Source: Xenophilus sp. E41 (GTDB lineage Bacteria; Pseudomonadota; Gammaproteobacteria; Burkholderiales; Burkholderiaceae_C). Taken from it: a stretch of DNA of 64,000 nt. The translations under genes were made by a program, and so were the position numbers. Positions 10,329 to 30,960 of the stretch are shown piece after piece (the first letter of the stretch is position 1; each line of letters starts with the position of its first letter). Location of the stretch: contig NZ_QPIB01000001.1 of assembly GCF_003671765.1 (NCBI RefSeq), positions 372,001 through 436,000 on the forward strand. Reading direction: 5' to 3'. The notes beneath the pieces were generated by a model, which saw only the letters and a program-made list of their open reading frames with translations, did no database searches and was not told the DNA's origin.

Positions 10329-11499
10329 CATCGAGAGCAAGCTCCTCCTGGTCGACGACCTGAAGGAGAACCTCGTCGCCCTCGACGCGCTGGTGCGCGG
10401 GCCTGGCCGGCGGGTGTTCCAGGCCGGCTCCGGCGACGCGGCGCTGGCGCTGATGCTCGAGCACGAATTCGCGCTGGCGCTGGTCGACGTGCAGATGCCC
10501 GGGATGAACGGCTTCGAGCTGGCCGAGCTGATGCGCGGCACCGAGCGCACGCGGCACATCCCGATCATCTTCGTGAGCGCGGCGGGCTCGGAACTCAATT
10601 ACGCCTTCAAAGGCTACGAAAGCGGCGCGGTCGATTTCCTGCAGAAGCCGTTGGACGCCCAGGTGGTGCGCAGCAAGGTGAACGTGTTCGTCGACCTGTT
10701 CGCCAGCCGCAAGGCGCTGAAGCAGGAGATGGAGGCGCAGCAGGCGCTGGTGACGGAGCTGCAGGCCGCGCGGCGGGACCTGGAGCGCGCGGTGCGCATG
10801 CGCGACGATTTCATGTCGATGGTGTCGCACGAGCTGCGCACGCCGCTGAACACGCTGTTCCTGGAGACGCAGGTGCGCAAGCTGCATCTGGCGCGCGGCA
10901 ACACGCAGTCGTTCACGCCCGAGAAGCTGAGGGAGATGACCGAGCGCGACCAGCGGCAGATCCAGAGCATGGTGCGGCTGATCGACGACATGCTGGACGT
11001 AACGCGCATGCGCAGCGGCCGGCTGTCGATGAAGCCCCAGGCCTTCGACCTGGCCGTGCTGGCGCGGCGCGTGGTGGAAGGCCTGACGCAGCAGGCCGAG
11101 GCGGCGGGCGCGAGCTTCCGGCTGGAGGCGGCGCAGGCGGTCGACGGGGTGTGGGACGAATTCCGCATCGAGCAGGTGCTGACGAACCTGCTGACCAACG
11201 CGCTGCGCTACGGCGGCGGCCACCCGGTGGACGTGCGGGTGGCCAACGCGGGCGAGGAGGCCGTGCTGAGCGTGCGCGACCGCGGCATCGGCATTGCGCC
11301 GGCCGACCAGGCGCGGATCTTCGAGCAGTTCGAGCGCACCGACTCGGGCCGCAGTCAGGCGGCTGGCGGCCTCGGGCTGGGGCTGTTCATTACGCGGCAG
11401 ATCGTCGAGGCCCATGGCGGGCGGATCGAGGTGAGCAGTTCGCCGGGCGAGGGGTCGACCTTCACGGTGACTCTGCCGCGGGAGCCTGCGCCGGCCTGA
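10312..11499 (+). CDS. Receiver domain-histidine kinase hybrid
   Basis: A cytoplasmic protein of 395 residues with an N-terminal receiver (acid pocket VDD at 14-16, phospho-Asp59 in LVDVQMPGMNG), a coiled linker (about 130-165), a HisKA domain with SHELRTPLN (His173) and an HATPase domain with DRGIGIAP and GLGLGLFI. It has no membrane segment. The receiver-first order suggests that phosphorylation by the large kinase gates its own kinase activity. The ATG at 10312 lies 17 bp inside cheB, so coupling continues. It is the last gene of the four-gene operon. No clear terminator follows, but the long inverted elements at 11561-11897 could fold in the transcript. Confidence 0.93.
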   Translation: MPPPTDIESKLLLVDDLKENLVALDALVRGPGRRVFQAGSGDAALALMLEHEFALALVDVQMPGMNGFELAELMRGTERTRHIPIIFVSAAGSELNYAFKGYESGAVDFLQKPLDAQVVRSKVNVFVDLFASRKALKQEMEAQQALVTELQAARRDLERAVRMRDDFMSMVSHELRTPLNTLFLETQVRKLHLARGNTQSFTPEKLREMTERDQRQIQSMVRLIDDMLDVTRMRSGRLSMKPQAFDLAVLARRVVEGLTQQAEAAGASFRLEAAQAVDGVWDEFRIEQVLTNLLTNALRYGGGHPVDVRVANAGEEAVLSVRDRGIGIAPADQARIFEQFERTDSGRSQAAGGLGLGLFITRQIVEAHGGRIEVSSSPGEGSTFTVTLPREPAPA

Positions 11500-11560
11500 G
11501 GACTGGTTGGTTCTGCGGGGTTCGGTGCCGTGGGCCTGAACCCGGCCGGCGGCGCCGGTG

Positions 11561-11674
11561 TGCGTTCTCCGGCTCAGGCTCGCGCTGACCGTCGTGCGGC
11601 ACGACGGATGTGCTCGCCTGGAATCGACGTGCTTTGGGCACTGCACGGCGCCGCGAATGGCGCCTGCGCCCGCA
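11561..11674 (+). repeat. 114-bp element, left arm of an inverted pair
   Basis: The reverse complement of this element recurs at 11784-11897. Its first 31 bases (11561-11591) and its last 38 (11637-11674, one mismatch) match the partner almost perfectly. The central 45 bases have diverged but kept their length. The centre contains a near-perfect palindrome CGTCGTGCGGCACGACG at 11589-11605. Confidence 0.8.
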
Positions 11675-11783
11675 CACCGGCACCACCGGCCTGGACGGTG
11701 GGGTGGATCGGCCGGCATGGCGCGGGCGCGTCCGGTTTGCCTGTCCACTCAGGCGCAGCGGTTCAGGGCGGTGGTCGTGGGCC

Positions 11784-11897
11784 TGCGGGCGCAGGCTCCA
11801 TTCGCGGCGCCGTGCAGTGCCGCAGGCGCGTCGATGGACAGCGAGCACGCAGGCAGCACGACAAGCCGGTCAGCGCGAGCCTGAGCCGGAGAACGCA
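11784..11897 (-). repeat. 114-bp element, right arm of the inverted pair
   Basis: Reverse-complement partner of 11561-11674, separated by a 109-bp spacer. The conserved blocks are 11784-11821 and 11867-11897. In RNA the two arms could form a large stem. In DNA they look like two copies of one small element with conserved ends and a variable middle. Confidence 0.8.
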
Positions 11898-12213
11898 GGC
11901 CCGCGGCCGCCGCCAGCGACCCCGCCCGTCGTGCCGGCCGATCCGCAGCAACGCCGGAGCAGGCCCCCGTCGAGAGCCTCAATAAGCCAACAGCAAAGAA
12001 AGTAACGAACGTGACGATTTCTGCCGGAACGCAAGCACAGCAAGCGCCACAGCCCGATCGCACCTTCCACCCGCCCCTGGAGCCGCCAAGAACTTGCCTC
12101 CGGGCAGGGCAAGCCCCACATGAGAAAATCGCGGGTTTTCCCCGGACGCCCTTGCTCGACGGCATGGCTCCTCGCGCTCCGGCACCCCCCGCACCACAGA
12201 ACAGGACACCACC

Positions 12214-13318
12214 ATGGACGCAGAACGCATCAACCAGATCGGCACCACCCTGAGCGACCTGAGCGCACGCACGGTCGATCTCCGGAGGTATCTTTGACTT
12301 CGATGCCAAAGCCGAACGCCTGAGGACCGTCAACGCCTCGCTGGAAGACCCGGCGGTCTGGAACGACCCCAAGAAGGCCCAGGAGCTGGGCAAGGAAAAG
12401 AAGGCGCTCGACGGCGTCGTCGTCACCCTCGACAAGCTCACGCGCGACCTGGCCGACAACACCGAGCTCTACGAGATGAGCAAGGAAGAAGGCGACGAGG
12501 CCGGCCTGCAGGCCATCGCCGACGAGGTTGCCGCGCTGCAGAAGGACGTCGAGGCGCTCGAGTTCCGCCGCATGTTCAACAACCCGGCCGACCCGCTGAA
12601 CGCCTTCGTCGACATCCAGGCCGGCGCTGGCGGCACCGAGGCGCAGGACTGGGCCAGCATGCTGCTGCGCCAGTACCTCAAGTACGCCGAGCGCAAGGGC
12701 TTCAGCACCACCGTCGAGGACGAATCGCCCGGCGACACGGCCGGCATCAAGAGCGCGACCATCAAGGTCGACGGTGAGTACGCCTACGGCCTGCTGCGCA
12801 CCGAGACCGGCGTGCACCGCCTGGTGCGCAAGTCGCCCTTCGACTCCTCGGGCGGGCGCCACACCAGCTTCGCGTCGATCTTCGTGTATCCCGAGGTCGA
12901 CGATTCGATCGAGATCGAGATCAACCCCTCGGACGTGCGCGTGGACACCTACCGCGCCAGCGGTGCCGGCGGCCAGCACATCAACAAGACCGACTCGGCC
13001 GTGCGCCTGACGCACATCCCGACCGGCATCGTGGTGCAGTGCCAGGACGGCCGCAGCCAGCACAGCAACCGCGACGTGGCCTGGAAGCGCCTGCGCTCGC
13101 GCCTGTACGACCACGAGATGCGCAAGCGCCAGGAAGAGCAGCAGAAGCTCGAGGACAGCAAGACCGACGTCGGCTGGGGCCACCAGATCCGCAGCTACGT
13201 GCTGGACAACAGCCGCATCAAGGACCTGCGCACCAACGTCGAGATCTCGGCCACGCAGAAGGTGCTGGACGGCGACCTCGACGCCTTCATCGAGGCCTCG
13301 CTCAAGCAGGGGGTCTGA
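12214..13318 (+). CDS. prfB: Peptide chain release factor 2, programmed +1 frameshift
   Basis: RF2 terminates translation at UGA and UAA by catalysing peptidyl-tRNA hydrolysis. Translation from the ATG at 12214 gives 27 codons and then meets an in-frame TGA at 12295-12297. Reading continues only if the ribosome slips forward one base on CTT TGA, so the coding path is 12214-12294 joined to 12296-13318, 367 residues in all. The class signatures are the stop-recognising SPF motif ([14 protein letters not shown]) and the catalytic GGQ ([10 protein letters not shown]). Length and motifs match ordinary RF2. The feedback logic is that low RF2 favours the shift. The gene usually precedes lysS, but here a lipoprotein gene follows within 4 bp. 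Confidence 0.97.
12284..12298 (+). promoter_or_regulatory. prfB: prfB programmed frameshift site
   Basis: The sequence CGGAGGTATCTTTGAC contains a Shine-Dalgarno-like GGAGG just before TAT CTT TGA C. This is the canonical RF2 autoregulatory slip site: an internal SD three bases before the CUU slippery codon, a poor UGA C terminator, and then the +1 frame. Confidence 0.96.
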
Positions 13319-30897: not shown

Positions 30898-30960
30898 CCC
30901 GTTCAGGCTGAGCCTGTCGAAGCGCGGTGCAGGGCTTCGACAGGCTCAGCCCGAACGGTT
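30898..30960. repeat. Inverted repeat with TTCGACAGGCTCAGCC core
   Basis: The two arms GTTCAGGCTGAGCCTGTCGA and TCGACAGGCTCAGCCCGAAC surround a short spacer between convergent genes. This core is familiar as a dispersed palindromic repeat in proteobacterial genomes, and here it probably also acts as a bidirectional transcription end. Confidence 0.75.

Follow-up and report, generated by a model that had tools for sequence, protein, structure and literature searches.

The intergenic repeats of bacteria known so far are mostly short hairpins or single palindromes. REPINs are described as doublets of REP sequences that form hairpins (PMC3116915), in which the individual REPs measure 20-40 bp and bear a GTAG or CGTC tag that stays unpaired at the stem base (PMC3733652). 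The BIME/REP sequences of enterobacteria are reported to act as gyrase and IHF sites, mRNA stabilisers and attenuators (PMC2267715), and the title of a 1988 review in the reference list of that article raises gene conversion for these repeats. From the order to which the present genome belongs, a candidate motif named Burkholderiales-1 was tabulated without an Rfam accession (PMC2864571).

The element described here, located in a 64,000-nucleotide stretch of the Xenophilus sp. E41 genome (referred to below as the window), is a dispersed inverted repeat pair with a spacer and resembles REPINs, as these are described in PMC3116915, in its two inverted palindromic units, less conserved spacer and intergenic dispersal, as well as in its compensatory changes and the occurrence of single units as remnants. 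Conversely, its units (here termed modules) are ~144 nt long (133-150 nt in alignment A5, see below) as opposed to the 20-40 bp of REPs, each harbours a covarying fold of its own, and the element is present in tens of copies where REPINs number hundreds. By eye, and for the window copy only, no GTAG or CGTC tag was seen abutting the module ends at 11546 or 11912. Since the modules exceed the size that defines a REP and the tags were not seen, the element is not filed as a REPIN. Compared by description (PMC2267715), BIMEs are likewise intergenic mosaic repeats, whereas in the present element a single inverted pair recurs, with a core that is large, conserved and marked by an internal-loop motif; ERIC and the stem-loop families (127-170 bp) are also intergenic, dispersed, foldable and close to the size of one module, but are described there as one unit and not as an inverted pair. 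Prokaryotic MITEs, a non-coding class of 100-400 bp with inverted repeats (PMC3116915), are similar in these general traits. Inverted outer ends were recognised by eye in the copies of genome G103 and were not clear in this genome, and no target-site duplication was recognised by eye in the G103 flanks or at the prfB site. The element is REPIN- or BIME-like in organisation, with much larger, individually folding units.

Comparison of the window with Rfam 15 (4227 models) yielded scores at the gathering threshold for tRNA only, while the region 11480-12100 gave, at E-values up to 5, a single sub-threshold match (Yar_3, 15.6 bits versus 50), and six further loci gave no match. No earlier description of the element was found in the literature, including text matches to CATTCGCGG, among the matches listed. 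The claim of novelty is limited in that the Rfam comparison does not cover Burkholderiales-1, which has no Rfam accession (PMC2864571).

In the window, the element is situated between a response-regulator/histidine-kinase gene (ending at 11499) and prfB. A sequence-only reading had proposed an inverted pair of equal arms with conserved ends and variable centres, and this was borne out by alignment of 11561-11674 with the reverse complement of 11784-11897: the arms, each of 114 bases, are identical at 92 of 114 positions without gaps, with 31/31 matches in the first 31 bases, 24/45 in the middle 45 and 37/38 in the last 38. Among 100 mononucleotide shuffles of 11400-12100, no 114-base inverted match exceeded 67 identical positions. 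When 11541-11920 was folded as RNA, an energy of -307.9 kcal/mol was obtained, compared with -210.2 (sd 6.0) for 100 dinucleotide shuffles (z -16.3). The 114-base arms are the middles of two larger modules of 144 bases in inverted orientation. A covariance model of the arms (R1) and a second model (R2) matched both modules over their full length, the latter with two strong matches of 97.5 and 92.3 bits in the window (third-best, 14.1). The codon-usage gene caller placed no gene inside the element, in agreement with the earlier reading. The features are as follows.

11546-11689, minus strand: left module, 144 nt, outward sense leftward, matched full-length by R1 and R2
11769-11912, plus strand: right module, 144 nt, outward sense rightward, matched full-length by R1 and R2
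11671-11689, minus strand: left module, 5' strand of closing stem P1; partner 11546-11564; 15 Watson-Crick and 2 G-U pairs of 17 counted
11546-11564, minus strand: left module, 3' strand of closing stem P1, from the same stem pairing count
11769-11787, plus strand: right module, 5' strand of closing stem P1; partner 11894-11912; 14 Watson-Crick and 3 G-U pairs of 17 counted
11894-11912, plus strand: right module, 3' strand of closing stem P1, from the same stem pairing count
11652-11658, minus strand: left module, ATTCGCG of stem P2b, invariant across the 47 rows of alignment A5
11800-11806, plus strand: right module, ATTCGCG of stem P2b, invariant across the 47 rows of alignment A5
11565-11570, minus strand: left module, GGAGAA, 3' side of the conserved internal loop (alignment A5)
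11888-11893, plus strand: right module, GGAGAA, 3' side of the conserved internal loop (alignment A5)
11690-11768, no strand: inter-module spacer, 79 bases here; REP-like palindromes are often found in the spacers of other copies
About 11530-11950, no strand: range of similarity among copies in this genome, from the alignment of copies
12002-12067, plus strand: separate ~68-bp repeat flanking this copy, found right and/or left of many element copies and alone elsewhere in the genome

In the outward sense, each module folds back on itself. A closing stem of ~19 bp leads to a conserved internal loop and then to a second stem at ATTCGCGG, topped by an apical part of ~70 nt with a variable sequence. 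Alignment A5 comprises 47 modules from 15 genera, aligned by sequence (133-150 nt in length), with pairs counted on a hand-drawn structure; its rows, like those of A2 (23) and A3 (25), were hand-picked from the matches, leaving aside opposite-strand rows and many near copies in the case of A5. The motif ATTCGCG, the internal loop GGCGCA/GGAGAA and the adjoining stems are invariant features of these modules. In A5, 93.5% of 1403 cells were paired and both-side changes occurred in 25 of 31 pairs, counts that are biased toward structure because the modules from other genera were found with structure models. The covariation score was 0.436 versus 0.132 for shuffled alignments, with none of 500 shuffles equalling the alignment on any measure, and sliding the structure along the alignment left just 27-47% of cells paired (maximum 47.3%). 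For modules of the genus taken in the outward sense (23, then 25), the consensus structure had an energy of -59 kcal/mol and showed compensatory changes, compared with -25 for the opposite sense.

Overall, 90% of the closing-stem positions are paired. In 17 elements, the stem's own pairing of 88% fell to 57% when strands were combined with those of the partner module (random swaps: mean 62%, maximum 69%), a count in which five modules of one genus (g2) that pair poorly, through bulges or mis-set anchors, were retained. For 11 modules from genomes outside the R2 set, own pairing was 77.5% against a swapped mean of 50.5% (1000 swaps, highest 70.6%), the 10 of 21 modules without anchor motifs being excluded from this count. 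As the closing stems of partner modules differ yet pair with themselves, the constrained fold lies within each arm. This supports the view, already put forward from the sequence, that two copies of a small non-coding element and not a simple hairpin are present. A long hairpin between the arms was excluded as the selected structure, given that the left and right closing stems mismatch each other and pair within the module. The apical part measured 68-72 nt in 34 modules, with an identity of 0.69 between the two modules of an element and 0.54 between genera; the order was reversed for the closing stem (0.57 and 0.62, respectively). Little of a conserved apical fold across genera was found by RNAalifold. 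The self-folding shape of the module is kept by selection.

A search of the whole genome with 11541-11914 recovered several full-length places, together with others comprising one arm, or both arms around an insert. Both arms are kept in the aligned copies, while the spacer differs and in several cases carries other palindromic repeats. R1 detected 26 module matches in this genome, one truncated by a contig end. Within the genus, copies were found in 11 of 14 members by DNA search and R2, while both methods returned none in G002, G003 and G013. Across the family, R1 placed modules in 19 of 250 genomes (15 of 141 genera) and R2 in 35 of 250 (24 of 141 genera). None was found outside the family: the positives in the order sample (3 of 399) and class sample (2 of 369) all belong to this same family, with 7-8 candidates scored per genome in these samples, such that weak relatives may be missed. 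Copy numbers (R1, E 0.1) reached 21 in G103, 34 in G014 and 40 in G113, with 4-9 matches in five others. A one-off, meaningless inverted duplication, for which nothing beyond the local sequence speaks and which the sequence-only reading had tied to a lack of further copies and of conservation in relatives, is refuted by these copies across genome, genus and family, and its probability is considered negligible.

The orientation of the modules proved uniform, with all 68 close pairs facing outward, i.e. 36/36 two-module places in the genus and 32/32 pairs in other genera. Two modules were present at 36 of the 55 genus places fetched (spacers of 78-440 bases), and the 32 close pairs from other genera, a hand-typed list without matches more than about 520 bases apart, have spacers of 51-518 bases. 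Only one module was seen at the other 19 of these 55 places, of which a few lie at contig ends; a site can thus do without the complete pair. In G216 (L275), two matches lie on the same strand, separated by 696 bases. Unusually long spacers were observed at L273 and L186 (518 and 507 bases, respectively), and the right flanks of L216, L217 and L220 in G014 carry extra partial copies of the module 3' end. The outward-facing pair of modules is a recurring dispersed unit in many genera of one family. Beyond bacterial chromosomes, plasmids gave no match to the element, and a phage origin was rejected, the one phage match being short (13% of the query) and located within an annotated protein gene; viral contigs gave one exact 19-mer, with an R2 score of only 11.3 bits. 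Matches of a 20-mer in three distant bacteria (L108, L112 and L120) were likewise discarded, being 20-21 bases long, with an R2 score of 16.5 bits for L108 and nothing for L112 and L120 among the matches listed.

The fold was shown to be strand-dependent. The closing stem contained 96 G-U against 14 A-C (of 789 positions), and the outward sense had the lower folding energy in 39 of 47 modules, folding better in 21/25 genus modules (one tie) and in 17/21 modules from genomes outside the R2 set. An excess of G-U over A-C implies that the fold of one strand is kept, as RNA or single-stranded DNA. The strand bias thus points to RNA or one-sense single-stranded DNA rather than to a double-stranded site, and fits the two equally well.

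The history of individual sites was followed within the genus. At the prfB locus, the element is present in G000, G006 and G001, whereas in 7 of 13 genus loci (G004, G005, G007, G010, G011, G012 and G013) the same two genes are adjacent without it; G002 and G003 lack it and have a different upstream sequence, the locus in G009 is interrupted by a contig end and G008 gave no prfB match. Many places in G000 and G001 have common flanks that are 89-94% alike. Mean arm identity was 0.915 for orthologous, 0.920 for non-orthologous and 0.943 for within-G000 comparisons, and ortholog identity exceeded the paralog mean in just 5 of 16 comparisons, where 1 of 11 site pairs had no arms of the same type and two (window copy with L161, and L038 with L160) share one flank only. 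Orthologous copies are therefore no more alike than others across the two species, as expected for concerted evolution. Furthermore, CTCAGG occurs in all 25 G000 modules and CGCAGG in all 21 G001 modules, with three of each in G006. At L165 (2302-2811), the centres of the left and right modules appear to have changed places, suggestive of an exchange between the arms, and in G001 (L160 and L161) the flanks of the window copy and L038 are swapped in comparison with G000, as recombination of the chromosome between the two copies would produce. The identities, hexamers and exchanges at L165 and in G001 point to recombination and gene conversion among copies and between arms.

Genomic context was scored after gene calling by a simple codon-usage method, for which four genes of the window served as training set. 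Among 77 entries, which include orthologous places (inflating the counts) and one module pair entered twice with the same neighbours (L219), 38 were convergent, 29 tandem, 4 divergent and 6 unclassified, compared with 6 convergent, 34 tandem and 6 divergent among 46 gene pairs of the window. Taken alone, G103 gave 8 convergent and 1 tandem (9 places) and G000 gave 6 convergent, 7 tandem, 1 divergent and 1 unclassified (15 places). A further 19 loci, mostly from few-copy genomes, were mainly tandem (12, with 5 convergent and 2 unclassified), showing that the convergent excess is not general. The element is mostly found downstream of genes. A specific shared neighbour gene was excluded, the neighbours being various housekeeping genes, among which gcvP (with the element 3' of it in two genera, in genomes G030 and G126) and the mnmG/rsmG stretch recur. 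One copy lies between ftsA and ftsZ in G102 (L265, between 5882 and 6518) and another between pyruvate kinase and aldolase genes, locations that make a strong terminator role unlikely there. A sequence scan of 11400-12250 identified neither sigma-70-like promoter sites nor terminator-like sites, including intrinsic terminators (GC-rich stem followed by a T run).

Given a strand-specific fold and a location mostly at the ends of genes, a reading as RNA is put first: a dispersed, non-coding paired repeat acting in read-through transcripts as a structured RNA, a best explanation to which, as a whole, an even chance is given, the RNA reading being about evenly balanced against all other readings together. 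Like REPINs, the pair would have dispersed as one unit in the distant past; it would now be fixed at its sites, with gene conversion keeping copies and arms alike. Its action in read-through transcripts is the weakest step: a transcript running through the element from either neighbour would end in one module in its favoured sense, and a protein recognising the conserved internal loop could affect the mRNA 3' end through stability or attenuation. The three of 14 genus members without the element, the single-module places, the mainly tandem context of the 19 further loci, the same-strand matches of G216, the equal fit of the strand bias to single-stranded DNA, the lean of the pairing counts toward structure and the absence of promoter and terminator sites from the scanned region weigh against this explanation. 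A more specific proposal is tentative: structured elements of a new class, either RNA or single-stranded DNA, defined by an outward pair of ~144-nt modules with an internal loop read by a dedicated partner, in which arms and copies are kept alike within a genome while closing stems are free to vary.

The main rival of the RNA reading, possible but less probable than that reading, is selfish mobile DNA without host function, i.e. single-stranded hairpins mobilised in trans by a transposase (HUH, as for REPINs, or another) and persisting as old insertions. The REPIN-like organisation, the dispersed copies, the seven prfB loci at which the same neighbours lack the element, the inverted outer ends seen by eye in G103 and the tolerance of single-stranded DNA for G-T pairs are all consistent with it, whereas the want of a recognisable target duplication or mobilising gene, the sites common to species with flanks 89-94% alike and the lack of a plasmid match weigh against it. 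Convergent neighbours (38 versus 4 divergent; 8 of 9 places in G103), along with the gyrase and IHF binding reported for BIMEs (PMC2267715), would instead suit a BIME-like chromosomal DNA element, putatively a gyrase or nucleoid-protein site at gene ends where transcription supercoils accumulate; this is considered doubtful, as a double-stranded site leaves the G-U excess over A-C unexplained. The outward orientation of both modules in the pairs counted would suit a pair of divergent small-RNA genes with promoters in the spacer, each transcribed outward, yet no sigma-70-like promoter was detected in 11400-12250 and the spacers range from 51 to 518 bases and host other repeats, rendering this option highly improbable. 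Each arm of the inverted pair is itself a large selected structure, retained at the ends of genes in many genera and homogenised within each genome. Should the RNA reading be true, the element would be a structured RNA, widespread but without a name, that probably has a protein partner; if a DNA reading is, REPIN-like units would reach a size at which covariation can reveal recognition. In either case, the covariance model offers a direct handle for locating the element in transcriptome data.

Other repeats were observed in the vicinity of the element. Many copies are flanked on the left, the right or both sides by a ~68-bp repeat (GATCGTCACGTTYGTGACGA ... CGATTGCRCTT) that keeps one and the same direction and also occurs by itself at many sites of this genome (window 12002-12067; L059-L078). 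A REP-like palindrome with GCTTCGACAGGCTCAGC forms an inverted pair at 30907-30950 of the window and is also found within many element spacers. Finally, the 5' end of prfB (12214-12300) contains a short frame ending in CTTTGAC downstream of an AGGAGGT-like stretch, which we take to be the usual release-factor-2 frameshift.
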